Positions 4,692-22,365 of a stretch of DNA of 64,000 nucleotides are shown here, in pieces. The notes under the pieces were generated by a model. It saw only the letters and a list, made by a program, of their open reading frames with translations. It did not search any database and had not been told where the DNA came from. Numbering within the stretch: position 1 is the first letter of the stretch; every line of letters starts with the position of its first letter. This DNA is from Arthrobacter sp. MYb227 (lineage in GTDB: Bacteria; Actinomycetota; Actinomycetes; Actinomycetales; Micrococcaceae): NCBI RefSeq assembly GCF_002975435.1, contig NZ_PCPT01000002.1, positions 372,001 to 436,000 on the forward strand, written 5' to 3'. A program made the position numbers and the translations under genes.

Positions 4692-4732
4692 CTGTCAACA
4701 TCATTGACAGTGACGATGACAGCACTTAGTGT
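4692..4732 (+). promoter_or_regulatory. TetR operator overlapping a sigma-A-like promoter
   Basis: Inverted repeat CTGTCAA-CATCA-TTGACAG (4692-4710). Its right arm is the -35 box TTGACA (4704-4709); after 17 bases comes TAGTGT (4727-4732) as the -10. The same operator, spacing and -10 occur at 7949-7977. A repressor bound here would block RNA polymerase for the binding-protein gene at 4831. Base pairs are seen directly; repressor identity is inference. Confidence 0.75.
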
Positions 4733-4830
4733 CATAGCTAACACTCGATGGGGATCTACATCACACCGAAGGCCAGTGAGGCCGGGACCGTGACGCCCCC
4801 GACTCGTTCCACTCGAACAAGGAGCCCGAC

Positions 4831-6465
4831 TTGAGAAATAAGCCCCTGAAACTAGCGCTTGCCGCAAGTGCGGTACTGGCCTTGGCTGCATGCTCGGCCT
4901 CGCCAGGCACGGGTGGTGGCGATGGCGCCGCCGCACCAAGCTTTGAAATTACCGCTAAGACTCCGGCCCCGAGTGGAGAGCTGGATAAGCTCACCTTCTC
5001 AACGTATGCCGAACCATTCTCGCTGGACTACGCGTACGCCTTCGACTACGCAGATAACCAGGTATTGGCCAACGTTTGTGAATCACTGGTTCGGCTCAAC
5101 GACGACATGTCGATTTCTCCTGGACTGGCCGAGAAGTACGAAAACCCCACACCAAATACCTGGGTTTACACCATCCGCCAGGGTGTGAAGTTCCACGACG
5201 GTGCCGAGCTCACCGCGGATGACGTGGTCGCTTCGATGAACCGCCATCTCGATCCGGCCGTGGGCTCCTTCTGGTACTCGGTTTACCAGAACGTCGAAAA
5301 GATCGAAAAGACTGGTGCGAACGAAGTTACCGTGACCTCCAAGGTGCCGGATGCGCTATTCAATGAGTCAATGTCCGGTGCCGCCGGTGTCATCGATTCT
5401 GCCGCAATGTTCAAGAAGGCCGGCGCGGATTACGGCAACGCCAAGGGTGGAGTTAACTGCACCGGTCCATTCGAATTCAAGAAATGGCAGAACGGCGAAA
5501 AGCTCAGCTTCGATCGTTTCGATGGCTACTGGGATGCAGACCTTAAAGCCAAAGCCAAGGAACTTGAGTTTGTCATAATGACCGACCCGGTGGCTCGTGT
5601 TAACGCGCTGAAATCCGGAGAAATTGATGGCGGTTGGATGCTACCGGCTACCGCAGTGGATGATCTGAACGCATCGGGCGCCGGAAAGATCTACTTTGGC
5701 CTCAACACCGCGGTTCAATCCTTGGTTGTTTCGAACCTCGAAGGGCCACTGGGTAACCCCGAGGTTCGCAAGGCACTGCTCATGGCGATCGATCGTGATG
5801 GCTTAGTTAAAGCCGCTGAGGGTGGCTACGGTACCCGCACCAACTCATTGACCAGCGAATCTGTCTGGTCGCATGCCGAGGGCGGAACTAAGGAAGCGGC
5901 CTTCAAGGATCTCGTTGATTACCCCTATGACGTCGAGGCAGCAGCCAAGATCGTCAAGGAACAAGGCATGGAGGGCAAGGAAATCACCTTGACCACCGCA
6001 CCAATAGGCAGTAACTTCGCCGTCATCGCCCAGGCTACAGCGGCAGCTGCCGAATCTATCGGGCTCAAGGCCACCATCAACACGGTGACCCCGAATGCCT
6101 ACACCGCGCTGTTCTCCGACCCGGAGGCACGCAAGGGAACCGACCTCTTCTACACCAGCTGGTACCTCTCAGTAGGTGACCCGCAGGAAATGTTCTCAAT
6201 CCTGCGCACCGATGATTTCTCCAACTATGGAAACTGGTCCGATCCGGCCTTTGATAAATCGGTGGCTACCGCGCTGGAGACCATGGATCAACAGGAACGC
6301 TTCACGAAGTCATTGGAAGCGCAGAAGATCACCAATGCGCAGGTTCCATGGCTGCCACTGTATGAAAGCCCGAACATTCTGTGGATGAGTAACAAGATCA
6401 CCGGAGCCTCGCCCTCGGTCAATTTCCTTTACTACCCGTGGGCTGCTGAAATCGGCGCCAAGTAA
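4831..6465 (+). CDS. ABC transporter substrate-binding lipoprotein, SBP_bac_5 family (copy 1)
   Basis: Extracytoplasmic binding protein of the peptide/nickel/opine type, 544 residues. The signal peptide ends in the lipobox LAAC with lipidated C21. The family motif TWVYTIRQGVKFHDG is present near residue 110. The start is TTG 4831, placed by AAGGAG 7 bases upstream and by the position of the signal peptide. It is monocistronic, followed by a strong terminator (6502-6551). It is closely similar along its whole length to the protein at 9701-11341, which sits directly upstream of the permease genes. So this copy probably delivers a related substrate to the same permeases. Regulated by the shared TetR operator in front of it. 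Confidence 0.93.
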   Translation: MRNKPLKLALAASAVLALAACSASPGTGGGDGAAAPSFEITAKTPAPSGELDKLTFSTYAEPFSLDYAYAFDYADNQVLANVCESLVRLNDDMSISPGLAEKYENPTPNTWVYTIRQGVKFHDGAELTADDVVASMNRHLDPAVGSFWYSVYQNVEKIEKTGANEVTVTSKVPDALFNESMSGAAGVIDSAAMFKKAGADYGNAKGGVNCTGPFEFKKWQNGEKLSFDRFDGYWDADLKAKAKELEFVIMTDPVARVNALKSGEIDGGWMLPATAVDDLNASGAGKIYFGLNTAVQSLVVSNLEGPLGNPEVRKALLMAIDRDGLVKAAEGGYGTRTNSLTSESVWSHAEGGTKEAAFKDLVDYPYDVEAAAKIVKEQGMEGKEITLTTAPIGSNFAVIAQATAAAAESIGLKATINTVTPNAYTALFSDPEARKGTDLFYTSWYLSVGDPQEMFSILRTDDFSNYGNWSDPAFDKSVATALETMDQQERFTKSLEAQKITNAQVPWLPLYESPNILWMSNKITGASPSVNFLYYPWAAEIGAK

Positions 6466-6501
6466 ACCACGTTCATTGTGATCTGGTTTGTTTTCCTTGA
6501 A

Positions 6502-6551
6502 AATTGCCGGCGTTTTGGTTTGAGTCTCTCCAAACCAAAACACCGGCAATT
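6502..6551 (+). terminator. Rho-independent terminator
   Basis: Twenty-one-base arms (6502-6522 and 6531-6551) pair with a single C-A mismatch around an 8-base loop. It lies 37 bases after the stop of the binding-protein gene and is followed by a T-rich stretch (tctcttgttttc). Confidence 0.85.
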
Positions 6552-6748
6552 CTCTTGTTTTCACCATTTCTCAAGCCCGTAAGTCTCATGGGGGGGGTAG
6601 CGCAGCATCAAGGTGACTGATGGGTGCCCTCATGAGCCGGCGTTTTGAAATCTCACGAGGGCTTCTTCGCTGCTGACAATGCGGTGCGCGGGCCGAGTCT
6701 GTTCCCAGCCCTACGTTGTCTCTCAAGCCGAGAGCTGAGGGGGGAGTA
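6552..6748. other. Intergenic DNA upstream of the Imm45-like gene
   Basis: No gene. One imperfect hairpin is visible: GCCCTC-A-TGAG (6626-6636) pairs with CTCA-C-GAGGGC (6652-6662). A G-rich stretch (about 6739-6745) provides the ribosome site of the small leader reading frame at 6749. Confidence 0.5.
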
Positions 6749-6787
6749 ATGAGTTATTCGATTTCACAGAGGCTCGATTATTTTTAA
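6749..6787 (+). CDS. Twelve-codon leader reading frame upstream of the Imm45-like gene
   Basis: Encodes MSYSISQRLDYF and ends with TAA at 6785-6787, four bases before the ATG of the next gene. It has a strong purine-rich site (GGGGGGAG) just before its ATG, whereas the downstream gene has none. The arrangement suggests translational coupling: ribosomes that finish the leader restart at 6792. It is in a different frame from the next gene, so it is not an N-terminal extension. No similarity recognised; could be chance. Confidence 0.4.
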   Translation: MSYSISQRLDYF

Positions 6788-6791
6788 AATC

Positions 6792-7145: not shown

Positions 7146-7171
7146 GCAAACTTGAGTGGCACGGTTCGAAG

Positions 7172-7867
7172 TTAAATGTTTGGTGCAGTTTGGGCTGAGG
7201 CGGCAACAATTTGCCGAACACCGGCCAAAAACATCTCTCGTTGGTCGATTGCCAAAATATCTTCACGGATGGCGGCGACGTGGCTATGCCGAATCGGATC
7301 GGCGCTTAGCGAACCGGCATACCACTCAAATGATTCCGGCTCGGTCTCGGGGGATTCGACCTGGTCGCGGACTAGCCCGGCCGCGCTAGCCAGTACGTAA
7401 GAGCCATAAATTGCGTATTGTTCGACCAATTCTTTGCCGGCCAGTCCGGCCTGAGTAAAGCACTGAAGAATAAGCTCAATGGTTGCCAATTCTCCCGGAC
7501 CATTGGTGGTTAGTGAGGTTGCGGTGACAGCAACTGCCGGGTACTGCATAAAGGTATCAAGGGTGGCAGCCGCAAATTCAACGAGCCGATCATCCCATCG
7601 TTCTACCGGGGTATGGGTGCGGTCGCAGGCAAGCTGCTGGATTCGATCCAAGAGCTCTTGCATGAGCGCTTCTTTGCTCCGAAAATGCCGGTAAATAGCG
7701 GTTGGATCGACGCGAATTTCCTTGCCAAGATCGCGGTAGGTCAAAGTCAGTTTGTCTTGGCGTGAGGCCAGACGTAGCCCGGCCTCGACAAAGACCTCTC
7801 GGTCAAGCTGGGGCTTGACGGCCCGAGCCTGGTTTGGCTTGGTTTCCACGTTCCGCTCCGATCGCAT
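7172..7867 (-). CDS. TetR/AcrR family regulator (paralogue 2)
   Basis: Repressor of 231 residues, full-length homologue of the regulator at 3946-4614. The DNA-reading helix region is nearly the same (TYRDLGKEIRVDPTAIYRHF), which supports recognition of the same DNA site. Both have the conserved segment YPAVAVTATSLTT/YPAIAVTATSLTT in the ligand domain. ATG 7867 is preceded by a G-rich site. It is divergent from the amidohydrolase operon; the operator at 7929-7963 lies between them. The two paralogues may differ in inducer while sharing operators. Confidence 0.9.
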   Translation of the reverse strand: MRSERNVETKPNQARAVKPQLDREVFVEAGLRLASRQDKLTLTYRDLGKEIRVDPTAIYRHFRSKEALMQELLDRIQQLACDRTHTPVERWDDRLVEFAAATLDTFMQYPAVAVTATSLTTNGPGELATIELILQCFTQAGLAGKELVEQYAIYGSYVLASAAGLVRDQVESPETEPESFEWYAGSLSADPIRHSHVAAIREDILAIDQREMFLAGVRQIVAASAQTAPNI

Positions 7868-7928
7868 GCGCCCCCTGTCGTGAGGTCTTGCCGCTGGGGG
7901 TATCCAGCAATCCTACATTCAATGATGA

Positions 7929-7977
7929 CAACGCGTCTGTCAACACCATTGACAGACGCGTTGACGTGAAATAGTGT
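7929..7977 (+). promoter_or_regulatory. Perfect 15-base inverted repeat: TetR operator and promoter of the amidohydrolase operon
   Basis: CAACGCGTCTGTCAA (7929-7943) and its exact reverse complement (7949-7963) are separated by CACCA. The right arm contains the -35 TTGACA (7949-7954), and TAGTGT (7972-7977) follows after 17 bases. This promoter and operator arrangement is the same as at 4692-4732. It should control 8012-16706 and, on the other strand, the TetR gene; TAGGAT-type -10 candidates on the minus strand (7910-7915, 4665-4670) are also shared. Confidence 0.8.
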
Positions 7978-8011: not shown

Positions 8012-9694
8012 ATGCAGAAAAACGCCGAGCTCGCCTTCCACTCGGGCAGCATTTTCACCGGCACGGGACAACCCGTAACCGGCATGGCAGTGTTGGTCAA
8101 TGATGGGCGTATCTCCGCCATCGTGCCCGAGTCCGAACTGAGCAACCACACCGGTGAGGCAACCACCGTGGTAGACCTCGGCGGAGCCCTGCTTTCCCCG
8201 GGTTTCCAGGATTCGCACATCCACCCCACCGGTGGCGGAACCGAACTTCTGCAGTGCAACCTCTCCGAAGCCGAAAGCGCCGAAGAAGCCGTGGCAACCA
8301 TTGCGGCCTACGCCGCAGCGAACCCGGACGTAGCCTGGATTCAGGGCGCCGGCTGGTCAATGGATCACTACGCAGGCGGCGCGCCCTTGGCCGCATTAAT
8401 CGACGCGGTGGTTCCGGACCGTCCCGTCTCTCTAGCCAGCCGTGACCACCACTCGATGTGGGCAAATAGCGCAGCATTCCGTGCCGCGGGTGTTGACGCC
8501 GCTACCGCGGATCCCGAGGACGGCTACTTCGAGCGTCTCGAAGACGGCTCCCCGGCCGGCACCCTGCACGAAGGCGCCATGGGTTTGATCGAAGCCCACG
8601 CCCCGGTAGCCACCATCGATCTGCTTGAGGCCGGTCTGGCCCGCGCACAGGAAGAACTGATCGCCCAGGGCATTACCGGTTGGCAGGATGCCATGGTCGG
8701 CGCAGGCGTGGGAATCCCGGATGCCAAGGATGCTTACTACCGTCTCATCGCCGCCGATAAGCTTAAGGTTCGCGTCCGTGGCGCCCAGTGGTGGCAGCGC
8801 GACCAAGGCCTGGAGCAGATCGACGGACTGATCGCGGTCCGTGCCGAGGCCGAAGCCCTGGGGCTCGTCGATCGCTTCAACCTTGGAACCGTCAAGATCA
8901 TGGTTGATGGCATCGCCGAAAACTTCACCGCCTCAATGATCGAGCCGTACCGCGACAAATGCGGACACAAAACCACTAACAACGGCATCTCATTTATCTC
9001 CGCAGCAAACCTCGCCATCTACGTCACGGCACTTGACGCCGCCGGCTTCCAGGTGCACTTCCACGCACTGGGAGATGCAGCTGTGCGCGACGCACTCGAT
9101 GCCCTTGAAGCGGCGCGCGCCGCCAATGGTCCCTCCACGCTGCGCCACCACCTGGCTCACCTACAGGTGGTCTCCGAGGCAGACGCCACACGTTTCGCCG
9201 GGCTTAATGCGATTGCCAACCTGCAGCCGCTGTGGGCCTGCCATGAGGACCAGCTCGATGAACTGACCCTGCCATTCATGCCGGAATCCGCACAGGATCG
9301 CCAGTACCCATTCGGTGACCTGGTCGCCGGAGGCGCACGCCTGGCCGCCGGTAGCGACTGGCCGGTTTCCAGTGCCGACCCGATCGTGGGATCACATATT
9401 GCGGTAAACCGTATCGACCCGGACAACGAGTCAGTTCCACTGGGTGGCGCCAAGCAGTGCCTGGATCTTGCCACCATTTGGGCCGCATACACCTCGGGCA
9501 CCGCGTATGTAAACCACCGCGAGAAGAATACCGGGTCCATTGCCCCTGGCTACCTTGCCGACTTCGCCGTCGTATCGCCGAACCCCTTCGAGGGTCCGAA
9601 AGAAAATATTTACCAGAGCCGCGTCGTATCCACCTGGATCGACGGGCAGTGCGTTTACACCGCAACAAACGTTGATGCACCGCAGGGAGTCTAA
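8012..9694 (+). CDS. Amidohydrolase family 3 protein (YtcJ/N-substituted formamide deformylase-like)
   Basis: Metal-dependent hydrolase of 560 residues, cytoplasmic, expected to cleave a C-N bond such as an N-acyl or N-formyl amide. The metal-binding HxH is H69-x-H71 in GFQDSHIHP. Later ligand candidates lie in VHFHALGDAA (about 345-354) and the Asp in AGSDWP (about 450). Length and layout match the Amidohydro_3 family, which includes YtcJ and NfdA. It opens an operon with a binding protein, two permeases, a double ATPase, a FAD oxidase and a cupin. The seven-base gap to the binding protein and the shared promoter suggest that it acts on the imported compound. Substrate unknown. Confidence 0.88.
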   Translation: MQKNAELAFHSGSIFTGTGQPVTGMAVLVNDGRISAIVPESELSNHTGEATTVVDLGGALLSPGFQDSHIHPTGGGTELLQCNLSEAESAEEAVATIAAYAAANPDVAWIQGAGWSMDHYAGGAPLAALIDAVVPDRPVSLASRDHHSMWANSAAFRAAGVDAATADPEDGYFERLEDGSPAGTLHEGAMGLIEAHAPVATIDLLEAGLARAQEELIAQGITGWQDAMVGAGVGIPDAKDAYYRLIAADKLKVRVRGAQWWQRDQGLEQIDGLIAVRAEAEALGLVDRFNLGTVKIMVDGIAENFTASMIEPYRDKCGHKTTNNGISFISAANLAIYVTALDAAGFQVHFHALGDAAVRDALDALEAARAANGPSTLRHHLAHLQVVSEADATRFAGLNAIANLQPLWACHEDQLDELTLPFMPESAQDRQYPFGDLVAGGARLAAGSDWPVSSADPIVGSHIAVNRIDPDNESVPLGGAKQCLDLATIWAAYTSGTAYVNHREKNTGSIAPGYLADFAVVSPNPFEGPKENIYQSRVVSTWIDGQCVYTATNVDAPQGV

Positions 9695-9700
9695 AGAATC

Positions 9701-11341
9701 ATGAAGCGCAATATCTTTAACACCAAGGCGCTGAAGCTCGCGGTTTCCGCGGCCGCGGTGCTCACCCTTGCCGCCTGTGGCGGTGCCTCCCCGGACGCCG
9801 GCGCCGCGGCCCTGACCTACGAGCTGACCAAGAACACCCCGGCTCCCACCGGGGAGCTGGATAAGCTCACGTGGTCCCTGTACGCCGAGCCGTACTCGCT
9901 CGATTACGCCTACGCCTTTGACTTCCCGGATAACCAGGTGCTGGCCAACACCTGCGAATCACTGCTGCGCCTGAACTCGGACATGAGTGTTTCCCCGGGC
10001 CTGGCCACCAAGTTCGAGAATCCAACCCCAAACAGCTGGGTCTACACCATCCGTGAAAACGTGAAGTTCCACGATGGCACCACCCTGAACGCAGATGATG
10101 TTGTCGCCTCGCTGAACCGTCACCTGGATCCGGCCATCGGTTCCTTCTGGTACTCGGCCTTTGCCAATGTCACGAGCATTGAAAAGACCTCCGCCAACCA
10201 GGTCACCATCACCACCAGCAAGCCAGATGCCATCCTGAATGAATCCCTGGCCGGGGCCCCGGGCGTTATTGATTCGGCAGCTACCTTCCAGAAGTACGGT
10301 GCCGATTACGGCAATGCCGCCGGCGGAGTTAACTGCACCGGCCCCTTCGAACTGAAGAAGTGGCAGAGCGGTGAAAGGCTTTCCTTTGAACGCTTTGCCG
10401 ATTACTGGGACAAGGATTTGGCTCCCAAGGCCAAGGAACTTGAATTTGTCATCATGACCGACCCGGTCGCTCGCGTGAACGCGCTAAAGTCCGGTGAAAT
10501 CGATGGTGGCTGGATGGTTCCCTCCAACGCCATTGGTGAGCTGAACGCCTCCGGCGCCGGGAAGGTCTTCTTTGGCACCAACTCCGCGGTGCAGTCACTG
10601 ATCGTCACCAACCCCGAAGGGCCACTGGGTAATCCAGAGGTCCGCAAGGCACTACTGATGTCTATCGACCGCACCGGTCTGGTGGCCGCGGCCGAAGCTG
10701 GCTACGCAAAGCGTACAAACGCATTGACCGCCGAATCGGTCTGGGGCGCTGCAGATAAAGCAACCCAGCAGGCGGCCTTCGCCGAGCTCACGGATTACCC
10801 CTACGATATTGAGGCAGCGGCCAAGATCATCGAAGAACAGGGTGTTGCCGGGCAAGAAATTACCATCACCACCGCACCCATGGGTAATAACTTCGCGGTT
10901 GTCGCCCAGGCCACCGCCGCGGCGGCCGAGTCGATCGGGCTCAAGGCAACTATCAACACCGTCACCCCGAACGCCTACACCGCGCTGTTCTCCGATCCGG
11001 AAGCCCGCAAGGGAACCGATTTGGTTTACACCAACTGGTACCTGTCCATCGGGGATCCACAGGAAATGTTCTCGATCCTGCGCGCCGGGGACTTTTCAAA
11101 CTACGGAAACTTTGCGGACCCAGCATTCGACAAGGTAGTCAACGAAGCCCTGGGTACCATCGATACCAACAAGCGCTTTGCTAAATCGCTTGAGGCACAG
11201 AAGATCCTCAATGCGCAGCTGCCGTGGCTGCCACTGTACGAGGTACCAACGATTCTGTGGATGAACGATAAAATCACCGGCGCATCCCCGTCGGTGAACC
11301 ACCTCTACTACCCTTGGGCGGCCCAAATTGGCGCAAAGTAA
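9701..11341 (+). CDS. ABC transporter substrate-binding lipoprotein, SBP_bac_5 family (copy 2)
   Basis: Binding protein of 546 residues, closely related to the one at 4831-6465. The lipobox is LAAC with C26. The conserved segment TWSLYAEPYSLDYAYAFD, near-identical in copy 1, recurs after the signal peptide. The C-termini of the two are also nearly the same (YYPWAAQIGAK versus YYPWAAEIGAK). It lies 7 bases after the amidohydrolase and overlaps the permease gene by 14 bases, so it is the cognate binding protein of this importer. Differences between the copies in the variable ligand cleft would decide substrate range. Confidence 0.93.
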   Translation: MKRNIFNTKALKLAVSAAAVLTLAACGGASPDAGAAALTYELTKNTPAPTGELDKLTWSLYAEPYSLDYAYAFDFPDNQVLANTCESLLRLNSDMSVSPGLATKFENPTPNSWVYTIRENVKFHDGTTLNADDVVASLNRHLDPAIGSFWYSAFANVTSIEKTSANQVTITTSKPDAILNESLAGAPGVIDSAATFQKYGADYGNAAGGVNCTGPFELKKWQSGERLSFERFADYWDKDLAPKAKELEFVIMTDPVARVNALKSGEIDGGWMVPSNAIGELNASGAGKVFFGTNSAVQSLIVTNPEGPLGNPEVRKALLMSIDRTGLVAAAEAGYAKRTNALTAESVWGAADKATQQAAFAELTDYPYDIEAAAKIIEEQGVAGQEITITTAPMGNNFAVVAQATAAAAESIGLKATINTVTPNAYTALFSDPEARKGTDLVYTNWYLSIGDPQEMFSILRAGDFSNYGNFADPAFDKVVNEALGTIDTNKRFAKSLEAQKILNAQLPWLPLYEVPTILWMNDKITGASPSVNHLYYPWAAQIGAK

Positions 11342-12353
11342 TGTAGCTGTGGCACCGCCACAGGCTTCCGGGGCCAAGGACCCCGGCAAGCCCGTGCTGG
11401 CGGGCCTGAAACTCGCAGCAGGCAAGATCGGTTCCTTTATCTTCACCGTGTTCGTTTCCTCGGTGATCGTGTTCTTCTCCCGTTGGCTGGTCCCGGGGGA
11501 TCCCATCAGCTTCCTGCTGCGCGGTCGCAGCCCCAATCCGGAGGCCATCGCGGAAGTTACCGCGATCTACGGGTTGGATAAGCCACCGCTAGAGCAGTAC
11601 TGGAACTGGATCACCGGGGTGCTCACCGGGGACTTTGGTCGCTCGCTGCAGTACCGTCAGGATGTCTCCGAGGTTATTCTGGGACGCCTGCCGGTGACCC
11701 TGGGTCTGGTTGTCATGTCCGGCATCATGATTGCTGTGCTGGGCTTGGCCGCCGGTATCTGTGCCTCGCTACTGCGTGGCACCTGGGCCGATAGGGCGAT
11801 CATCGCCTCGATGTCCGGTCTTGCCGCGATCCCATCGTTCGTCGGTGCCATCGTGCTGATTGCCATCTTCGCGGTCCAGCTGGGGATGTTCCCCTCTTTT
11901 GGTTCCGGCACCGGATTCTGGGACATGATCTATCACCTGATCTTGCCCTCGCTAGCGCTGGCGCTTTCCTTTATTGCCGTGGTGGGGCGCGTTACCCGCT
12001 CGGCCATGCTTGAAGAATTCTCGCGCGAACACGTCGAAGTAGCCCGCTCACGCGGTGTCACCCCGGTAGCCGTTGTCATTCGCCACGTACTGCGTAACGC
12101 GCTGGGTCCGATCCTGACCGTTTCCGGTCTGTTGGTTGCCGGTCTGCTGGTTTCCTCGGCCATCGTGGAACAGGCCTTCGGCTTGGCCGGGCTCGGCTCA
12201 CTGCTGGTTTCCTCCGTGGACCGGCTGGACTTCCCGGTGGTGCAGGCGATCGTACTGATCGTTGTTACCGCATTCGTGGCCATCAATACACTCGTTGACC
12301 TGCTAGGTCCCGTCATCGATCCGCGCCTCAAGGCCGGGGAAGGAGCACGATGA
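11328..12353 (+). CDS. DppB/OppB-type ABC transporter permease
   Basis: Inner-membrane permease of a peptide/opine-type importer, 341 residues from TTG 11328; a GTG at 11349 is an alternative start, since the first residues are a Pro/Ala-rich tail. The family signature near the N-terminus is FFSRWLVPGDP. The EAA loop reads EVARSRGVTPVAVVIRHVLRNAL (about 237-259). Six hydrophobic segments. It overlaps the preceding binding protein and shares ATGA with the next permease, so the two are translationally coupled. With DppC-like and DppDF-like partners it forms the translocation pore. Confidence 0.92.
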   Translation: MAQSNVAVAPPQASGAKDPGKPVLAGLKLAAGKIGSFIFTVFVSSVIVFFSRWLVPGDPISFLLRGRSPNPEAIAEVTAIYGLDKPPLEQYWNWITGVLTGDFGRSLQYRQDVSEVILGRLPVTLGLVVMSGIMIAVLGLAAGICASLLRGTWADRAIIASMSGLAAIPSFVGAIVLIAIFAVQLGMFPSFGSGTGFWDMIYHLILPSLALALSFIAVVGRVTRSAMLEEFSREHVEVARSRGVTPVAVVIRHVLRNALGPILTVSGLLVAGLLVSSAIVEQAFGLAGLGSLLVSSVDRLDFPVVQAIVLIVVTAFVAINTLVDLLGPVIDPRLKAGEGAR

Positions 12354-13207
12354 GCATCCAAGCCGCACCGCGTTTGCCACTTAAACGCCAATCGCTGCAC
12401 AAGACCCGTTGGGGCCTTGTCATCTCCATCGGCTTCCTCGCCTTGGTACTCATCGCAGCGATCTTTGCACCACTCGTTGCACCTTTTTCCCCCGCGGCAG
12501 TTGACCTGCTGCGGGTGAACTCGGGCCCCACACCACAACACTGGCTGGGCACCGATGCGCTGGGCCGCGATATCCTCTCACGGATGGTCTATGGGTCACG
12601 CACCGCGCTGACCGGACCGATTGTGGTGGTCTTGGCCTCCACAATTCTGGGTCTGCTTTCCGGTCTGTGGGCCGGTTGGGCAGGGGGGAAGATTGATGCG
12701 ATTATTTCTCGTATCTTCGACATCGTCCTGGCCTTCCCGGCACTGCTTCTGGCCATCTTGGCAGTTGCCTTGTTCGGCAAGGGCCTGATTGCCCCGGTGA
12801 TCGCCATGTCGATCGCGTACACCCCCTACATCGGCCGGCTCACCCGCCAGCTGGTAGCCACCGAAAAGAACCGCCAGTATGTGGCCGCCTACAAGGTGCA
12901 GGGATTCTCCGCACCGTGGATTGCGACCCGCGCTGTCATGCCAAACGTGTTGGGTGTGGTTGGCTCGCAGACCACGCAGAACTTTGGTTACGTGTTGGTA
13001 GAACTTGCCGCACTGTCCTTCCTCGGCTTGGGCATCCAAGCACCCAAGGCGGACTGGGGCAACATGATCAATGAGGGTCAGGCGGCATTGGTTTCTGGCA
13101 ATTTTCTGCCGGCCTTGATCCCGTCCATTGCAGTGGTATTAGTAGTCGTCGCGGTCAACTCCGTGGGCGGCTGGCTGTCAGATAAGTTGGGAGACCCGTT
13201 CGCATGA
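12350..13207 (+). CDS. DppC/OppC-type ABC transporter permease
   Basis: Second permease, 285 residues, with the DppC hallmark HWLGTDALGRDILSRMVYG (about residues 63-81) and an EAA-type loop near residues 180-200 (AAYKVQGFSAPWIATRAVMPN). GGAAGGAG precedes ATG 12350, which overlaps the DppB-type stop; its own stop overlaps the ATPase start at 13204. Five to six membrane helices. It should pair with the DppB-like subunit. Confidence 0.93.
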   Translation: MSIQAAPRLPLKRQSLHKTRWGLVISIGFLALVLIAAIFAPLVAPFSPAAVDLLRVNSGPTPQHWLGTDALGRDILSRMVYGSRTALTGPIVVVLASTILGLLSGLWAGWAGGKIDAIISRIFDIVLAFPALLLAILAVALFGKGLIAPVIAMSIAYTPYIGRLTRQLVATEKNRQYVAAYKVQGFSAPWIATRAVMPNVLGVVGSQTTQNFGYVLVELAALSFLGLGIQAPKADWGNMINEGQAALVSGNFLPALIPSIAVVLVVVAVNSVGGWLSDKLGDPFA

Positions 13208-14871
13208 GACTTTTAGATGTCAACGAACTAAATCTTGATATCAAGGTTCACGGAGCACCCACGCTTGAATTGCTCAAGGCGGTATCGCTACACATCGATC
13301 GCGGCGAAACCGTGGCACTGGTTGGCGAATCGGGCTCCGGTAAGTCATTGACCGCTCGCGCGGTACTGGGCCTGCTGCCCTCGACCGCAACCGTCACCGG
13401 CACCATCGATCTTGGAGGCGTACAAGTCCTCAAGGCCAATGGCCCGGAACTCCGTGCCCTGCGCCGTACCCGTGCCGCGATGGTCTTCCAAGACCCACGT
13501 TCCTCCATCAACCCGGTACGCACCTTGGGTGCTCACCTGATTGAACCCATGATGCAGGAACCCGGCGCAGATAAAGCGGCCCTGGAAAAACGCGCCATCG
13601 GGCTCTTGGCCTCCATGGGCCTGAGCAACCCCGAAGCCCGCATGAAGCAGTACCCACATGAGCTTTCCGGTGGCATGCTGCAGCGCGTGATGATTGCCGG
13701 TGCGCTGATGAACGACCCGGAACTGCTGATCTGTGATGAGTCAACAACCGCATTGGATGTCACCACGCAGGCCGCGGTCATCGAGTTGCTCTCCACCGCG
13801 GTGCAAGAGCGTTCCATGGGAATGCTCTTCATCACCCACGACCTGGCTCTGGCCGCGTCGATCGCCGACCGCACCTACGTATTGCGCAATGGTGTGGTGC
13901 AGGAACACGGCGAAACTCGTCAGGTCTTCGAAGCGCCGGTCTCCGAATACACCAAGGCACTCGTTGCCGCGACCCCGTCGATGGCCGGTGCTCCAAAGAC
14001 CGGTGCACATATCTCCGATTCATCGCAGACACCGGTATTGCGAGTGGAGAACGTTTCCAAGACGTACTACCTCTCCGGTCAGCCTCCGGTTGAAGCCTTG
14101 AAGAATGTTTCTCTTGCCATTCCGGCCGGTGGCGGCCTGGCCATCGTGGGTGAATCGGGTTCCGGTAAGTCAACACTCGGCCGCATTGTTGCCGGGCTTG
14201 AGGGCCCGGACACCGGGGAGATGAGCGTTGCCGGAGGCGAGATCACCGGATCAAATGCCAAGGAACGCCGGCTGAAGAAGGCCTCCCGCGTGCAGATGGT
14301 CTTCCAAGATCCGTACCAGTCACTTGACTCTCGACTGACCCCGGCCAAGGCCCTGCAGACGGTGCTCAAACTGCATTACAAGCTTGATGCCAAGGCCATG
14401 AATGCTCGCGTGATCGAATTGCTTGAATCCGTAGGGTTGGAAGAAAAGCACGCGAATCTTTACCCGCGCAAACTCTCCGGTGGTCAGCGCCAGCGTGTGG
14501 CAATTGCCAAGGCCATGGCCCTGGAACCGCGTCTGCTGGTGCTGGATGAAGCAACAAGTGCACTTGATGTTTCGGTACAGGCACAGGTGCTGGAACTGGT
14601 GAATAAGCTGCGTCGTGAACAGGGCGTTTCGGTGCTGTTTATCAGCCACGACCTGGCCATCGTGGGGGAGATCTGTGACGAACTATTGGTCGTCCAAAAC
14701 GGATCGATCGTTGAATCTGGTCCCACCGCTCAGGTACTGAACCACCCGCAGCACCCCTATACCCAGACCCTGTTGGCCTCGGTGCCGCGCCCTCGGTGGG
14801 AAACCAACCCACACGGCGCAGCGGAACCGCAGGATGCGGATCTGGAACCTGCCAAAAACAGCAGCCTCTAA
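13204..14871 (+). CDS. Fused DppD-DppF type dual ATPase
   Basis: Both ATPases of the importer on one chain of 555 residues. The first half has Walker A GESGSGKS (about 42-49), signature LSGGMLQR and Walker B LLICDESTTALD. The second half has GESGSGKST (about 317-325), LSGGQRQR and LLVLDEATSALD. In the first Walker B the usual DEP is DES, a mild departure. Fusion is common in actinobacteria and removes the need for two ATPase genes. The last codons are followed after 15 bases by the FAD oxidase gene, so the operon continues. Confidence 0.94.
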   Translation: MRLLDVNELNLDIKVHGAPTLELLKAVSLHIDRGETVALVGESGSGKSLTARAVLGLLPSTATVTGTIDLGGVQVLKANGPELRALRRTRAAMVFQDPRSSINPVRTLGAHLIEPMMQEPGADKAALEKRAIGLLASMGLSNPEARMKQYPHELSGGMLQRVMIAGALMNDPELLICDESTTALDVTTQAAVIELLSTAVQERSMGMLFITHDLALAASIADRTYVLRNGVVQEHGETRQVFEAPVSEYTKALVAATPSMAGAPKTGAHISDSSQTPVLRVENVSKTYYLSGQPPVEALKNVSLAIPAGGGLAIVGESGSGKSTLGRIVAGLEGPDTGEMSVAGGEITGSNAKERRLKKASRVQMVFQDPYQSLDSRLTPAKALQTVLKLHYKLDAKAMNARVIELLESVGLEEKHANLYPRKLSGGQRQRVAIAKAMALEPRLLVLDEATSALDVSVQAQVLELVNKLRREQGVSVLFISHDLAIVGEICDELLVVQNGSIVESGPTAQVLNHPQHPYTQTLLASVPRPRWETNPHGAAEPQDADLEPAKNSSL

Positions 14872-14886: not shown

Positions 14887-16332
14887 ATGACCATTTCAAA
14901 ACCGACGTTCTTTGAGAACGCCGAAAAGTCAATTGATCCGGCACTGTGCGCCGCGTCCCTGCGTGATACCAAGCGTGCGGTGTACTGGCTGGATTCACCG
15001 GCTCGTCCGGGCGTACGGGAGTCACTGCGTGCACAGCTGAACACCGATCTGCTGGTTGTGGGCGGCGGGTACACCGGTTTGTGGACCGCGCTGCTGGCCA
15101 AGGAGCGCAACCCGGAAACCACAGTGGTTTTGCTTGAAGCGGCCTGGATTGGTTCCGAGGCTTCGGGACGCAATGGTGGTTTCTGCGAAACCTCATTGGT
15201 CCACGGAGAATCCAATGGCGAGGCACACCTGCCCAAGGAAAATGCGCGACTGACCGAGTTGGGCAATGAGAACCTCGCCGAGCTCATCGAAACCATCGAA
15301 CGCTATGGCATCGATTGTGATTTGATCCGCGAGGGTGCGCTGGCCGTTGCCACCGAACCGCACCAGGATGCCTGGTTGCGCGAGGAATCAAATGGCGAAG
15401 ACGTCATTTACCTTGACCGTGCGCAGACAAACGAACTGATCAAATCCGATGCTTTCTACTCGGGCTCGTGGTCCAAGGAAGATACGGTTTTGGTCAACCC
15501 GGCCAAGCTCGCGTGGGGACTACTGGAAGCCTGCGAGCAGTTGGGGGTCAAGGTTTACGAGCAGTCAAAGGTCACCGGGATTTCCGAGGTCGGCGGCCGC
15601 ATTGTTGCCGACACCGACGGAGGCCAGATCACTGCTGCTAAGGTTGCCCTGGCCACCAATGTGTTCCCCACATTGCTCAAGCGCAATGCGCTGATGACCG
15701 TCCCGGTGTACGACTACGTGCTTGTCACCGATCCGTTGACCAAGGCCCAGCGCGAAGCCATTGGCTGGGAGACGCTGCACGGCCTGGTCGACTTGAACAA
15801 CCGCTTCCACTACTCACGTCCCATCATTGATGAAAATGGTGACTTCCGTATTCTGTACGGCGGTTGGGACGCCATCTACCGCTTTGGCGGCAAGGTGAAC
15901 CACGAGTACTACGACAGCGAAACCACCTACACCAAGCTTGCCGCACACTTCTTTGCCACCTTCCCGGAGCTGCAGGACTTGAAGTTCTCGCACGCCTGGG
16001 GTGGAGCCATTGATTCATGCTCACGCTTCTTCTCATTCTTTGCCCTGGCGTATAAGGGCAAGGTTGCCTCGGTTGCCGGATTTACCGGTCTGGGTGTTGG
16101 TGCCTCACGCTTTGGTGCCAAGGTCATGCTGGATCTACTCGATGGCAAGAAGACCGAGCTCACCGAGTTGGAAATGGTCAAGAAGAAGCCGTTGCCGTTC
16201 CCTCCAGAGCCGGCTGCCTGGCTTGGGGTCAAGATGATGACAGCTGCCATGGCTCGTGCCGATCACCGTGAAGGTGAGCGCGGCTTATTCCTTAAAACCA
16301 TGGATGCCGTTGGAATGGGATTCGACTCATGA
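14887..16332 (+). CDS. FAD-dependent oxidoreductase of the DAO family
   Basis: Cytoplasmic flavoprotein of 481 residues resembling gamma-glutamylputrescine oxidase and glycine/D-amino-acid oxidases. The dinucleotide-binding motif is VVGGGYTGL (about 57-65) with the acidic end of strand two in LLEAAWIGSEASGRNGG; the GRNGG segment is characteristic of this group. A substrate-domain GGWDAIYRFGG lies in the middle, and the C-terminal FAD-contact FTGLGVGAS near 399. It would oxidise an amine or amino acid released by the operon's amidohydrolase. The stop overlaps the cupin start (ATGA at 16329). Precise substrate not readable from sequence. Confidence 0.87.
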   Translation: MTISKPTFFENAEKSIDPALCAASLRDTKRAVYWLDSPARPGVRESLRAQLNTDLLVVGGGYTGLWTALLAKERNPETTVVLLEAAWIGSEASGRNGGFCETSLVHGESNGEAHLPKENARLTELGNENLAELIETIERYGIDCDLIREGALAVATEPHQDAWLREESNGEDVIYLDRAQTNELIKSDAFYSGSWSKEDTVLVNPAKLAWGLLEACEQLGVKVYEQSKVTGISEVGGRIVADTDGGQITAAKVALATNVFPTLLKRNALMTVPVYDYVLVTDPLTKAQREAIGWETLHGLVDLNNRFHYSRPIIDENGDFRILYGGWDAIYRFGGKVNHEYYDSETTYTKLAAHFFATFPELQDLKFSHAWGGAIDSCSRFFSFFALAYKGKVASVAGFTGLGVGASRFGAKVMLDLLDGKKTELTELEMVKKKPLPFPPEPAAWLGVKMMTAAMARADHREGERGLFLKTMDAVGMGFDS

Positions 16333-16706
16333 GCCAGCAAACTACACCAGTTCTCAAGGACCGCACCGTTGATGCGCTAAGCGTTGGAATGGAACACGAA
16401 CCGGTCCCCGCCGAACAATCTGTTGAGGGGAATCCGAGCACCGCGGCCCAGGAATTGGGCGAGATCTTTGGTGTTGAATTTGGTCTGTGGGAAATGAGCG
16501 CCGGGACCATGACTGACGTGGAAGCCGAGGAGCTATTTGTTGTGCTCAGCGGTTCGGCCACCGTACAGATTCACGCGGAGAATGGCTTTGCGGCCGCCGA
16601 GTTGCATTTGGTGCCGGGCACCGTATGCCACCTTTCCGAAGGTATGCACACCAGTTGGACGCTGCATGAGCCACTACGCAAGATGTACCTGGTAGCTGCC
16701 GAGTAG
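16329..16706 (+). CDS. Cupin-domain protein
   Basis: Small single-domain beta-barrel protein, 125 residues. The cupin core is seen from about residue 53 (GLWEMSAGTMTDVEAEELFVVLSG) through VPGTVCHLSEGM. The metal ligands typical of cupin motif 1 (HxH...E) are not complete: only Glu residues are visible there, with one His in the second motif. It may therefore be a ligand-binding or isomerase-like cupin rather than a dioxygenase. Such cupins (DUF861/EutQ-like) commonly follow FAD-dependent amine oxidases. Last gene of the operon, translationally coupled to it. Confidence 0.78.
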   Translation: MSQQTTPVLKDRTVDALSVGMEHEPVPAEQSVEGNPSTAAQELGEIFGVEFGLWEMSAGTMTDVEAEELFVVLSGSATVQIHAENGFAAAELHLVPGTVCHLSEGMHTSWTLHEPLRKMYLVAAE

Positions 16707-18589: not shown

Positions 18590-20023
18590 TTAAACCTTGG
18601 CTGCCGCATTGAGCTGTGGCCACCAGGAGGCCTGGTTCCACAGGCCCATTGACTCCTCGAGCGCCTGGCCCAGAGTGAAGACCGTTGCATCGTCATAGGT
18701 CCGCCCAACGATCTGCACGCCCGTGGGAACACCATTGGGAGCAACGCCGGATGGAACCGCCAGGACCGGAACGCGACCAACCACATTGAATGGGAGGGTC
18801 AGCGCCGATTCCAGCCAGGAAACCTGCTGCCCGTTGATCTCAATAAGCTCCGCCGGATCCGCAAAGTCCGCGACCAGTCCCTGCGTGGCATTGGTGGGGC
18901 AAAGCAGTGCGTCGTAGTTTTCGAGCAGCTTACCCAGTGGGGCATAGAGCTCGGCCTCGGAGACCAAGCCTTCGGCGAAGGAACCGCCCGTGGCTGCATT
19001 TTCTGCGAAATTGCGGGTGTATGGCATGAGCAATTCCTGCTCTTTACGGGGAATCTCGGAGATGAAGGCGCCCATGATGCCGCCAAAGTGAGCCCAAGCG
19101 GTGGCAACTAGCTGCTCGCGAGTCCAAGGCAAGATCACCTCATCAACGATGACTCCGGCATTGCGCAATGCCTCGGCCGCGGCGCGGGTGTTGGCCTCTA
19201 CCGCCGGGTCGATCGCGTAATCGCCAAGATTTACGCACAAGGCAACGCGCATTCCCTCTGCGGCCTCGGCATTGGGTGTCTGCAACACGTAAGCGGGACG
19301 GAGCGAAGCCTGATCGGTGTAGTGTGGCCCGGCAATGACGTTTTGCAGCATGGCAACGTCTGCAACCGACTTACCCATGGGTCCATCGGCGCAGTAGGTG
19401 TCCTGGTTGAAGGGGGCCATGCCCGGCACACGGCCAAAGGGTGGCTTGAAACCCACCAGACCATTGAATGAGGCCGGGATACGGATAGATCCGCCAATAT
19501 CTGATCCGGTGGCCAGAATGGATTCGCCCGCCGCAAGCGCTGCACCGGAGCCACCCGAGGATCCGCCGGGAGTCATCTCAAGATTCCACGGGTTACGTGT
19601 CACACCCCAGAGTTTTGAGTGGGTATAGCCAGCGCAGCAAAATTCGGGGGTGGTGGTGCGGCCATGCACCACAGCACCGGCATTGAAGATGCGCTCCACA
19701 ATTGGGTGGGTAACCTCGGCGATCTCGCCCTTTTGCAGCAGCGAGCCTTCTTCCGCGGTGTAACCGGCGATGGGCTGTTCTTCTTTGAGCAGTAACGGGA
19801 TGCCTTCGAGTGCACCAAGCTGGGAGCGGGAGGTTGCGAAGCGTTCCTGGGATGTGCGAGCCGCAGCGTAGGCCACTTCAAGCATTTCCTCGGTCAACGC
19901 GTTGACGGAAGGCTCCACCGCGGCGGTGCGTGCCACTACCGCATCGAGCAATTCGACGGGGGAGAGCTCTTTAGATTTAAAAAGTTCGCGTGCCCGGGTG
20001 GCCGTGAGATGGTGCAGCTCCAT
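18590..20023 (-). CDS. Amidase signature family hydrolase
   Basis: Amide hydrolase of 477 residues using the Ser-cisSer-Lys triad. K80 lies in LLLKEE, the cis-Ser S155 in TPGGSSGGS, and the nucleophile S179 in GSDIGGSIRIPA. No signal peptide, so cytoplasmic. A TAGGAG site lies 9 bases before ATG 20023. Not part of a GatCAB set, as there are no gatB or gatC neighbours, so a catabolic amidase is more likely. Its promoter (TTGACT, 17 bases, TAGTCT on the minus strand) carries a variant of the TetR operator seen at 4692 and 7929, which links it to the amidohydrolase-importer system. Confidence 0.9.
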   Translation of the reverse strand: MELHHLTATRARELFKSKELSPVELLDAVVARTAAVEPSVNALTEEMLEVAYAAARTSQERFATSRSQLGALEGIPLLLKEEQPIAGYTAEEGSLLQKGEIAEVTHPIVERIFNAGAVVHGRTTTPEFCCAGYTHSKLWGVTRNPWNLEMTPGGSSGGSGAALAAGESILATGSDIGGSIRIPASFNGLVGFKPPFGRVPGMAPFNQDTYCADGPMGKSVADVAMLQNVIAGPHYTDQASLRPAYVLQTPNAEAAEGMRVALCVNLGDYAIDPAVEANTRAAAEALRNAGVIVDEVILPWTREQLVATAWAHFGGIMGAFISEIPRKEQELLMPYTRNFAENAATGGSFAEGLVSEAELYAPLGKLLENYDALLCPTNATQGLVADFADPAELIEINGQQVSWLESALTLPFNVVGRVPVLAVPSGVAPNGVPTGVQIVGRTYDDATVFTLGQALEESMGLWNQASWWPQLNAAAKV

Positions 20024-20076
20024 TGCGTGTGACTCCTATGCGTGTGGAAAAAGTCCGGGGCGCGCAAGCCCTCATA

Positions 20077-20131
20077 AGTGAGACTAGGCTCACTCTTTCA
20101 TTAAGTCAACGGTGATGACAGCGGCGTTGAC
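20077..20131 (-). promoter_or_regulatory. Amidase promoter with operator-like repeats
   Basis: On the minus strand, CTGTCATCACCGTTGACTT (20121-20103) matches CTGTCAACACCATTGACAG of the TetR operator at 15 of 19 positions and overlaps the -35 TTGACT. The outer half-site GTCAACG (20131-20125) continues the match to the longer 7929 operator. The -10 TAGTCT (20086-20081) sits inside another palindrome, AGTGAG-N6-CTCACT (20077-20094). So two regulators may act here. Sequence seen; binding inferred. Confidence 0.6.
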
Positions 20132-20179
20132 GGTGGGGCTGGAGTTAGTCGCAAGAACTTCGGTGCCATGGTGAAGTCG

Positions 20180-20713
20180 TTAATGAACAAGTGCCTTAAG
20201 TATCACGACCACCACACCGAGTAGGGCGGTGGATAGTCCAACGCCGATCCGCATTGACTGCTGGCGCGTCCAGCGAACAGCGGAGAAGTAACCAAGGAGG
20301 CCAAGAAATAAGACATCAACCCACAATGCCGTCCACAACGCGACATCATCACGCACTAGATTGGTGACCCCGAGCAACACGATGAGCAGTGGAATCACCG
20401 AAGCGATGAGCATTCCTGATGAATGCGAAATGCCATGGCGCAGCGCCGCCTTAAGTGGAGCTTTTCGATCCTTATCGGCAACGGCGTTGAGATGTGCGAC
20501 AGCGGCGGCGAAAACATGGGCCAGCCAGAAAACTAGGACCGCTCCCAGCACCTTGAAGAAAACCTGCAGTGAGGTGACATCGTAGCGATCCGAAATTATC
20601 AGTAACGCCGAAACTACCACTAGTCCGTACACTGCCGATTCGGAGGTGAAATCCGAACGCTGAATCTTGCTGCTCAATGTATCCCCAGGTTTAGTGGCAG
20701 TATGCAAATTCAT
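20180..20713 (-). CDS. Small integral membrane protein of unknown function
   Basis: 177 residues with about five hydrophobic segments (about 30-45, 50-75, 95-120, 125-145, 155-175), separated by short basic loops. A soluble N-terminal tail of about 25 residues precedes the first helix. I do not recognise the family. It lies between the amidase and the carboxylesterase genes on the same strand but with its own upstream gap of about 100 bases on either side. It has no transporter or enzyme motif. Coding potential is supported by length, hydrophobicity pattern and lack of a better reading frame. Confidence 0.72.
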   Translation of the reverse strand: MNLHTATKPGDTLSSKIQRSDFTSESAVYGLVVVSALLIISDRYDVTSLQVFFKVLGAVLVFWLAHVFAAAVAHLNAVADKDRKAPLKAALRHGISHSSGMLIASVIPLLIVLLGVTNLVRDDVALWTALWVDVLFLGLLGYFSAVRWTRQQSMRIGVGLSTALLGVVVVILKALVH

Positions 20714-20812
20714 GCACCAGAAGCTCTCATCATAGGGTGGTGAGGGGCTTGACTTTCATGAAACAAAGCTGAAGCTTTGGTCATCAAATGAGGGCTTGCG
20801 GCGCTGGCGTCT

Positions 20813-22312
20813 CTAGAGCCCTGAATCTTTTCGCAGGGCCCGCACGCTTGCATACCCGTCCTTGACTGTTCGGGTGAACGAATCAAAGACTCGGGTGTTC
20901 TTGGTTTCTGATTCGTAGGAGCCCCACCCTGGTGCCCCGGTCTTGATGAAGGCCAGTGCCTCGGCGTTCAGCGTATCGGCAAGTTCCTGCGGTGGAGTCG
21001 GCCCGGCTAACGGCTCAACCTTGATTGAATCCAAGCAATCGAAGAAGAACGGTACATCTAGGCAGTGCACTGCGGCTCCGAAAACAGGGGAACGCCATGC
21101 GAACCTTGAAACCCAAGTATTGGATCCGGCCCGCACATCGGCAAGCTCAGATAGTGCCACGCGGAACATTCGGTCGGTGAAGAACCGTCCCATGACCGCG
21201 GCGGTACCCAGATTTTTTGTCTCTGCGTTATCTATCATCCAGGCCTTGCGCGCTGCCTTGGACCCGCCCATCTTAGTGATCATTGCCGAGGCCGGAAGGA
21301 AGCGCAGGTACTTTGCTGCCTTGGTAAACGCCATAGCAAATTCATCATCTGCTGCCGAGAGCCACAGCGGGATGTTCTCACCTACACCTTGCTGCAAAGA
21401 AGTGGTGGTGGACTGGGTGATGAGGGCCCCATCAATAACGGGGCCCAGAGCCAACCCTTCATCGAGCATCTTGGCTAGGGCGCCCTTGGCCATGAGATTA
21501 GTGCTCTTTTGCTGCATTTCGATGAGCTTTTCCTCGGGAACCGAGGCGAAGCCGGCCCGGTCGGCACTGACGCCAAGCTCCTGTGCCAATTTTTGTGTAA
21601 ATTCTTGCGCCCGTGGCAACGGAACATCGGCAAGTGCGCCGGACAATGAGATGACGCCATGGAAGAGACCTGCAGCGGCAGGCATGCCGAGCAAGGTGAG
21701 CACGGCTCCGCCGCCTGCTGATTGTCCGGCAATGGTGACCCGATGTGGATCGCCACCGAAAGCAGCGATGTTATCGCGCACCCATTCAAGGGCACAGAGC
21801 CAGTCACGCACGCCACGGTTATCCTGAACCCCGGGAATGTGGCCGAATCCATCGAAGCCAAGTCGGTAGGAAATGACCACCGTGATCACCCCGTCACGCG
21901 GGAATCCGGGGCTGTTGTACCAGGGGCTGGCGGGGGAGCCGGCAAAGAACCCGCCACCATGAATCCAGACCAGGACCGGCAGTTTGGCCTGGGTGTCTCC
22001 GGCGGCGGGTGTTGTCACGTTGAGGTTCAGGGTTGCTTCGCCAGCAATACTCGGCTCGGGAATCAAGGTAACACCGGGGTCTCCGCGCTGTGGTGTGGGG
22101 CCGAAGGCCAGCGCATCGCGAGTGCCTTCCCACGGGCCTACGGGCTCGGGGGCGGCGAAGCGAAGCTCGCCAACGGGCGGTTGAGCGAACGGGATTCCGC
22201 GGAATGCGGTGACGCTTTGCCCCTGAGTGAGCGGAATTTCAAAGCCACGCAGTGAACCCAGCGGCGTATCGATGGTGCGAGTGTTGTGCTCGGTACTATT
22301 CCCTGCTGACAT
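20813..22312 (-). CDS. Type B carboxylesterase
   Basis: Alpha/beta-hydrolase of 499 residues. The oxyanion motif is WIHGGGFFAG (117-126) and the nucleophile S198 lies in GQSAGGG. The N-terminus RGIPFAQPPVGELRF is typical of the COesterase family. The catalytic His is likely in the late segment AVHCLDVPFFF. No signal peptide, so intracellular ester hydrolysis. AGGAG lies 6 bases before ATG 22312. It is divergent from a GH3 gene. The intergenic region contains GTCAACAGCATTGACAG on the minus strand, one base off the TetR operator core. Confidence 0.9.
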   Translation of the reverse strand: MSAGNSTEHNTRTIDTPLGSLRGFEIPLTQGQSVTAFRGIPFAQPPVGELRFAAPEPVGPWEGTRDALAFGPTPQRGDPGVTLIPEPSIAGEATLNLNVTTPAAGDTQAKLPVLVWIHGGGFFAGSPASPWYNSPGFPRDGVITVVISYRLGFDGFGHIPGVQDNRGVRDWLCALEWVRDNIAAFGGDPHRVTIAGQSAGGGAVLTLLGMPAAAGLFHGVISLSGALADVPLPRAQEFTQKLAQELGVSADRAGFASVPEEKLIEMQQKSTNLMAKGALAKMLDEGLALGPVIDGALITQSTTTSLQQGVGENIPLWLSAADDEFAMAFTKAAKYLRFLPASAMITKMGGSKAARKAWMIDNAETKNLGTAAVMGRFFTDRMFRVALSELADVRAGSNTWVSRFAWRSPVFGAAVHCLDVPFFFDCLDSIKVEPLAGPTPPQELADTLNAEALAFIKTGAPGWGSYESETKNTRVFDSFTRTVKDGYASVRALRKDSGL

Positions 22313-22348
22313 GTCTGCTCCTGGTATGAGAGATCGGTGGCGCTCATG

Positions 22349-22365
22349 CTGTCAATGCTGTTGAC
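22349..22365 (-). promoter_or_regulatory. TetR-type operator upstream of the carboxylesterase
   Basis: Minus strand GTCAACAGCATTGACAG (22365-22349) differs from the core in the amidohydrolase operator by one central base. TTGACA (22355-22350) could be a -35 reading toward the esterase, but I see no good -10 at 17 bases (TCATAC lies at 20). The site is 37 bases from the esterase start. Confidence 0.6.

Follow-up and report, generated by a model that had tools for sequence, protein, structure and literature searches.

A single palindromic sequence recurs in front of several transcription units in a stretch of 64,000 nucleotides of the Arthrobacter sp. MYb227 genome (here called the window; C12:372001-436000 in an assembly of 27 contigs and 4.31 Mb). 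We consider it quite probable that this sequence is an operator shared by two paralogous TetR repressors, TetR1 and TetR2, which would control an inducible import-and-deamidation regulon. The predicted targets are a gene for a family 5 solute-binding protein (SBP1); a main operon encoding an amidohydrolase, a second solute-binding protein (SBP2), an importer, a flavin adenine dinucleotide (FAD)-dependent oxidase and a cupin; an amidase gene; and, with less certainty, a carboxylesterase gene. This reading is favored because the operator lies beside the TetR gene in nearly all relatives and is rare elsewhere in the same loci; because the four sites lead the window's matches to a matrix from which its own genus was left out; because close orthologs of the amidase have the operator and remoter homologs lack it, despite a variable distance between TetR and amidase genes; because the operator moves with detached FAD oxidase and flavin amine oxidase genes; and because the -35/-10 geometry is kept, outer half-sites recur among the operators and the trees fit a duplication.

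The initial annotation of this DNA had placed the repeat at four positions, and all four copies were found there. Operator 1 (39 bp in its extended form, 4682..4720, plus strand) has an exact core at 4694-4708 and a right arm, TTGACA at 4704-4709, that resembles a -35 box. Operator 2 (39 bp, 7927..7965, plus strand), with its -35-like box at 7949-7954, extends as claimed to a perfect 15-bp inverted repeat with arms at 7929-7943 and 7949-7963; the interval first given for it, 7934-7958, is the inner part. The sequence CTGTCAACAYCATTGACAG occurs without mismatch in both (4692-4710 and 7937-7955). On the minus strand, operator 3, before the amidase gene (20093..20131; core 20119-20105), contains CTGTCATCACCGTTGACTT at 20121-20103 and has a perfect outer left half-site, GTCAAC. 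Operator 4, before the esterase gene (22339..22377, minus strand), has an exact core at 22365-22351 within an exact copy of GTCAACAGCATTGACAG (22365-22349), shows 3 mismatches of 19 when read as the 19-bp pattern (22349-22367), and has weak flanking half-sites.

The core GTCAACANCATTGAC has three exact copies in the whole genome, all of them within the window, at sites 1, 2 and 4. With up to two mismatches it has 94 matches on both strands together, whereas the reversed pattern, used as a control, has 26. Among the 94 is the amidase site, two mismatches from GTCAACANCATTGAC, so that its core alone is unconvincing. Matches with up to three mismatches numbered 3 in the window against 0.02 expected from a shuffled window.

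Relatives of the two TetR genes were collected from public genomes by the pattern [VA]D[PA]TA[IV]YRH, and the best 80 of 176 confirmed loci were kept. Each was searched for the operator, allowing up to two mismatches, over a stretch reaching from 400 bp ahead of the start of the TetR match to 30 bp beyond it. The palindrome GTCAAC-N3-GTTGAC was found beside the TetR gene in 78 of the 80 (59 exact, 17 with one mismatch and 2 with two mismatches of 12), at distances of 30-221 bp measured from where the TetR match begins, and its spread takes in Arthrobacter, Microbacterium, Agromyces, Leifsonia and Nocardioides and, with two mismatches, Streptomyces. No such site lies beside the TetR gene of Ornithinimicrobium (L221), which has no amidohydrolase gene nearby, or of Yinghuangia (L236), which does have one. 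Across the remaining 1.50 million positions of the same 80 loci, the palindrome turned up once without mismatch, 6 times with one mismatch and 70 times with two; the seven best of these include two operators of second TetR genes (L158 and L159). A palindrome beside the regulator's own gene, as expected of the TetR family, is thus present and conserved, and these comparisons make the site very probably the operator of this TetR clade. Neighboring genes were counted in stretches up to 10 kb either side of the TetR gene. An amidohydrolase relative is present in 78 of the 80 loci, standing divergently and within 450 bp of the TetR gene in 76, and a solute-binding protein with both permeases is present in 71.

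For a more sensitive search, the 76 TetR-linked sites with no more than one mismatch were reduced to 55 nonredundant ones, the site from the window's genus was dropped, and the remaining 54 were made into a symmetric 39-bp matrix. Its four best independent matches in the window are the sites in question: operator 2 (34.4 bits), the amidase operator (31.6), operator 1 (31.0) and the esterase operator (18.5). The next independent match scores -3.3 bits, and the remaining matches above 0 bits (23.4, 8.1 and 4.3) are the same sites shifted by 12 bp. Among 200 simulated windows with the dinucleotide make-up of the real one (12.8 million positions), no position reached 31 bits and one reached 18.5. 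At a distance from the TetR starts, the 80 loci contain three places of at least 18 bits, two of them second TetR operators. A whole-genome scan was made with a profile from the same 54 sites of relatives; it was not exhaustive, 150 of 1845 first-look candidates being scored. The amidase operator, operator 1 and operator 2 lead it, followed by a site beside a third TetR gene on contig C13, then C24:69779, C12:180185 and the esterase operator.

For the single targets, family searches covered 295 genomes evenly drawn from a larger group; per genome, up to 5 first-look candidates were scored for the amidase and for the esterase and up to 9 for TetR. Amidase matches were obtained in 31 genomes and a locus for 30. 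Close orthologs (at least 76% identity) occur in 7 of the 295 genomes, and all seven have the operator (27.2-35.0 bits); it was found in none of the 23 remoter homologs (46-51%; 23 of 24 examined), where the best score was -4.1 bits. The TetR and amidase genes lie as close together as about 0.4 kb in G269 and as far apart as about 22 kb in G246, which argues that the operator is not a mere effect of neighborhood. These comparisons place the amidase firmly in the predicted regulon. No operator was found with four amidases that have 60-65% identity and lie inside such clusters (two from Microbacterium and one each from Nocardioides and an actinomycete); the operon promoter may serve for their transcription.

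The operator moves with function. In G262 and G269 the FAD oxidase gene stands apart from the transporter operon, with an operator of its own (26.9 and 27.7 bits, respectively). In G004 two tandem flavin amine oxidase genes (PF01593; C1:3609262-3610952, L283) have one each (35.3 and 25.8 bits), the first lying between a flavin amine oxidase gene and a divergent gene for a PhnD-like binding protein; in our reading both enzymes bear a Tat-type signal. The proposal of one operator for SBP1, the main operon and the amidase thus has strong support from the genome statistics, the 78 of 80 relatives, the 7 of 7 amidases and the detached FAD oxidases. By simple open reading frame (ORF) calls, other genera have genes of the aminobutyraldehyde dehydrogenase group (14 of the 80 loci), class III aminotransferases (5) and flavin monooxygenases (19) near the cluster, and the one representative scanned from each group scored above an NCBIfam cut-off. 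No aminobutyraldehyde dehydrogenase, aminotransferase or flavin amine oxidase/monooxygenase gene was seen in the window's own cluster. The initial annotation had joined import, hydrolysis of amides and esters, and oxidation of the released amine in one regulon. The import and amide units do share the operator and the ester part is probable; amine oxidation by the regulon is supported indirectly, by the amine oxidases of a sister species and by the neighbors of some relatives.

At operators 1 to 3 the right arm appears to serve as the -35 box of the target promoter. A -10-like TAGTGT follows TTGACA after 17 bp at operator 1 (4727..4732, plus strand) and at operator 2 (7972..7977, plus strand), and TAGTCT follows TTGACT at the same spacing at the amidase operator (20080..20085, minus strand). 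This geometry is kept in genus-mates: for operator 1, G005 and G014 have TAGTGT and G004 has TAGGGT at the same spacing; for operator 2, TAGTGT stands in G005 and G004 and TACTGT in G014; and TAGTCT is found in 6 of the 7 amidase orthologs, with TAATCT in G245. The plain reading at these three operators would be repression by blocking of RNA polymerase. The initial description of a right arm followed after 17 bases by TAGTGT or TAGTCT holds for sites 1, 2 and the amidase and does not fit the esterase, where no comparable -10 is present and the best candidate, TCTCAT at 18 bp, agrees with TATAAT in 4 of 6 positions. This geometry seems unfit for a normal leader, and there may be either a roadblock or no control at all at this site.

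Several observations weigh against the regulon as proposed. Because the 80 relatives (the best 80 of 176) were preselected through the recognition-stretch pattern [VA]D[PA]TA[IV]YRH, the TetR reading is slightly less sure, and a site for something other than TetR slightly more likely, than the counts suggest. The partner genes vary: within 10 kb on each side, the FAD oxidase is present in 32 of the 80 loci, the cupin in 9, the esterase in 7 and the amidase in 4. The hydrolases and the FAD oxidase score below the NCBIfam cut-off for every family among the matches listed. Strong matrix matches are commoner in real genomes than in simulations, and one of 22.2 bits, above the esterase operator, lies inside an ORF of G003. 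Cross-talk with the third TetR, whose operator has a very similar core, is possible. The esterase operator is only seventh among distinct places in the genome scan (E 0.09), is missing in the G004 ortholog, so that two of three orthologs have it, and lacks a convincing -10. It was also absent from 15 of 15 remoter esterase homologs and from the esterase genes near TetR in seven Microbacterium loci, the best score among these being -1.2 bits; with none of the seven having an operator, the latter genes were rejected as support.

The rank in the genome scan, the higher-scoring match in G003, the absence from G004 and 22 other upstream regions, and the want of a -10 at the usual spacing would all be accounted for if the esterase site were a coincidence and the regulon here had three units. 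We regard this as unlikely: the esterase core is exact and one of only three in the genome, its 18.5 bits were reached by 1 of 12.8 million simulated positions, and the G005 ortholog has a site of 13.8 bits at the matching place, whereas the 22 other esterase regions reach -1.2 at most. The esterase is best taken as a probable member of the regulon, specific to its lineage, and its listing among the controlled genes in the initial annotation stands in that weaker form.

Other matches in the genome were considered individually. C24:69779 scores 17.6 bits, less than the esterase operator, and lies directly before an ORF for an EamA transporter; it was not adopted. The palindrome there (C24:69779-69806; L284, center 7790), GTCAACGCCGTTGAC, lies about 20 bp before the called start of this EamA-family ORF, which adjoins a gene for a TIGR03364 FAD oxidoreductase (426.8 bits, cut-off 285.1), and it is a possible further regulon member. 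C12:180185 (13.8 bits, again below the esterase) was not adopted, its gene context being unclear. Its core, GTCAACGCTGTTGAC, is found in similar surroundings in two species (C12:180185-180210, L074; and G005 C1:880676-880699, L287), with no clear gene context by ORF calls in either. The matches in G003 and G013 (17.2 bits), as well as C1:460894 and C26:100814 of the MYb227 genome, were rejected as lying inside called ORFs; such coding coincidences are expected, since GTCAACnnnGTTGAC can be read as codons for V-N-x-V-D. A partial match to the operator profile recurs in many copies at a 36-bp period in G001 (C72:213352-213976) and is probably a tandem repeat.

TetR1 (3946..4638, minus strand; Pfam TetR_N 26.4, cut-off 24; TetR_C_1 26.9, cut-off 21) is divergent from SBP1, and TetR2 (7172..7867, minus strand; TetR_N 35.4, TetR_C_1 27.1) is, by the tree, its paralog. 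The description of two paralogous regulators with near-identical recognition helices agrees with their 61% identity and with a common stretch, VDPTAIYRH, which we take to be the recognition helix. An operator separates each of the two TetR genes from its divergent target. A TetR gene with the same operator and a divergent solute-binding protein neighbor is also found in G004, G005, G014 and G245. The SBP1-adjacent TetRs of these genomes and of the window form one group in the tree, with support (83/85) that is not firm, and the SBP1 proteins form one group with support of 98/97; the TetRs of the main operons show no resolved grouping. The TetR-operator-SBP unit was probably duplicated before Glutamicibacter uratoxydans (G245) and the window's genus separated. 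The tree also places the G245 TetR within that genus, so a later transfer between the two is possible as well.

The third TetR (C13:3001-21076, L073) is about 33% identical and has a GTCAACACCGTTGAC site at 10517-10531. It adjoins a second set of an amidohydrolase (42%), a FAD oxidase (60%) and a cupin (50%); similar sets occur in G006 and G007 and, without a cupin match, in G012. One could suppose separate regulons, two or three in number, whose operators look alike: TetR1 would act on SBP1 only, TetR2 on the main operon only, and the third TetR on the amidase. The operator of the third TetR does have GTCAACACCGTTGAC in common and, like the amidase site, TT after the core, and divergence is frequent among paralogs. 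However, VDPTAIYRH is common to TetR1 and TetR2; the outer left half-site matches at 5-6 of 6 positions in all seven amidase sites, as in the TetR1/2 sites, against 2 and 1 of 6 in the site of the third TetR; and all seven genomes with a close amidase have a TetR2 relative (E 1e-51 or better) within about 25 kb. Separate regulons appear distinctly improbable in this light.

The conserved sequence extends beyond the 15-bp palindrome. In a feature that the initial annotation does not mention, 39 of the 55 nonredundant operators have a further half-site, like GTCAAC on the left or GTTGAC on the right, at an outward offset of exactly 12 bp from the inner one, with at least 5 of 6 positions matching on one side or both; at other offsets from 6 to 24 the count is 0-6, the 6 occurring at offset 24, the next multiple of 12. 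Left and right outer half-sites match at 5 and 6 of 6 positions in operator 2, 4 and 5 in operator 1, 6 and 2 in the amidase operator, and 4 and 2 in the esterase operator, and G002 has three registers 12 bp apart, each of at least 26 bits. Since the right arm coincides with a -35 box, whose function alone would keep TTGACA, the repeats might instead be conserved as part of a promoter, or be bound by some other regulator and by neither TetR1 nor TetR2. This is scarcely credible: the left arm and the 12-bp-offset half-sites are conserved too, though they serve no obvious purpose in the target gene's promoter, and the site goes with the TetR gene at short distance in 78 of 80 loci. Palindromes in the 12-bp register overlap by three base pairs, which suggests binding of several dimers, and an extended operator of overlapping palindromes, as found here, is the mark of dimer-of-dimers TetR regulators of the QacR/DarR type. 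We tentatively propose, at slightly less than even confidence, a modular operator: half-sites recurring every 12 bp would make up 15-bp palindromes, two or three in number and overlapping, on which two to three repressor dimers would assemble in a row, and the number of flanking half-sites retained would set the strength of repression. Of good flanking half-sites the main operon has two, the amidase one and the esterase none.

The regulon could work as follows. TetR dimers would bind the central palindrome and, cooperatively, the overlapping flanking palindromes, closing the -35 box to RNA polymerase; the tetR genes themselves would probably also be under repression. The inducer that frees the operators of repressors would be an imported amide or one of its products. 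The solute-binding proteins and an Opp/Dpp-type transporter would then import the compound. Amide bonds would be cleaved by the amidohydrolase and the amidase, and perhaps an ester bond by the esterase. The freed amine would be oxidized by the FAD oxidase; further oxidation by dehydrogenases is a guess from the neighboring genes in other genera.

The gene content agrees with the initial annotation. SBP1 (4831..6465, plus strand; Pfam SBP_bac_5, 254.7 bits) forms its own transcription unit. The main operon, all on the plus strand, begins with the amidohydrolase (8012..9694; Amidohydro_3, 294.6 bits, cut-off 29.7) and SBP2 (9701..11341), a family 5 solute-binding protein by alignment with SBP1 and its orthologs, whose PDB relatives are peptide-binding and nickel-binding proteins. 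These are followed by a DppB/OppB-type permease (11328..12353; NCBIfam Opp2B, 252.8 bits, under the cut-off of 350), a permease labeled DppC/OppC type by its position (12350..13207; kept in the operon in 71 of 80 loci) and a fused double ATPase (13204..14871; two ABC_tran stretches and oligo_HPY). Last come the FAD-dependent oxidase of the DAO family (14887..16332; 179.2 bits) and an EutQ-like cupin (16329..16706; Cupin_3, 31.5 bits, cut-off 23.5). The oxidase falls short of the cut-offs for the aminophosphonate oxidoreductase TIGR03329 (180.3 against 632.8 bits) and the L-pipecolate oxidase NF050086 (107.7 against 600). The amidase-signature amidase (18590..20023, minus strand; Amidase, 273.4 bits) has its own unit, and the type B carboxylesterase (20813..22312, minus strand; COesterase, 267.4 bits) is the probable fourth. 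PDB searches named no substrate for the cluster proteins, and a plasmid search returned 26 records, none at 60% identity or more.

Upstream of TetR1, window positions 1-3636 hold importer genes of the ATP-binding cassette type and a further ORF (2821-3636), a block that is also found beside the SBP1-linked TetR in G004; the 39-bp matrix finds no operator for it. Between the cupin and the amidase, the ORF at 16978-18414 ends in what we take to be an HNH-like motif, and the matrix finds no operator ahead of it.

A close known counterpart is TetR/tetA, in which a TetR-family repressor has a divergent target. The window's regulators are similar in having TetR_N and TetR_C_1 above the Pfam cut-offs and a 15-bp palindromic core between divergent genes, over a -35-like box. 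They differ in scoring far below the equivalog cut-off of the tetracycline repressor model NF010319 (38.7 and 39.4 bits against 265), in having catabolic-looking rather than efflux targets, and in serving up to four units with one operator. Among enzymes, the N-substituted formamide deformylase NfdA originates from Arthrobacter. NfdA and the metal-dependent bile salt hydrolases belong to Amidohydro_3, members of which cut N-acyl amides (PMC13081902). The first enzyme of the operon shares this Pfam family, a likeness at family level only. The closest solved relative of the amidase is 6-aminohexanoate-cyclic-dimer hydrolase (PDB 3a2p, E 1.5e-44), and aryl acylamidase 4yj6 matches at E 4.4e-41; both are relatives in sequence, but distant.

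Binding as a dimer of dimers is described in the TetR family for DarR (PMC10636190) and for QacR and CprB (PMC4150764), and the second DarR dimer docks on an overlapping pseudo-palindrome (PMC10636190). The operators here likewise exceed one 15-bp site, and their sequence suggests overlapping palindromes. They differ in that the flanking half-sites, known from sequence, lie 12 bp out and may occur on both sides, implying a row of up to three dimers; the layout may be a new variant, and its 12-bp phasing gives a clear prediction of how TetR dimers would line up on the DNA. No description of the regulon, the TetR clade, the operator or the targets was found in the literature searched, including searches with the four operator 15-mers, though this covered open-access text only and leaves absence unproven. 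Catabolic regulons under TetR control are already known, and this clade with its operator and targets is a new, well-defined member of that kind. A vaguely annotated cluster of hydrolase, oxidase and importer genes, spread through Micrococcales and a few other actinobacteria, becomes one testable pathway with a defined candidate regulator and operator, and searches with the operator can reveal more members and, through them, the substrate.

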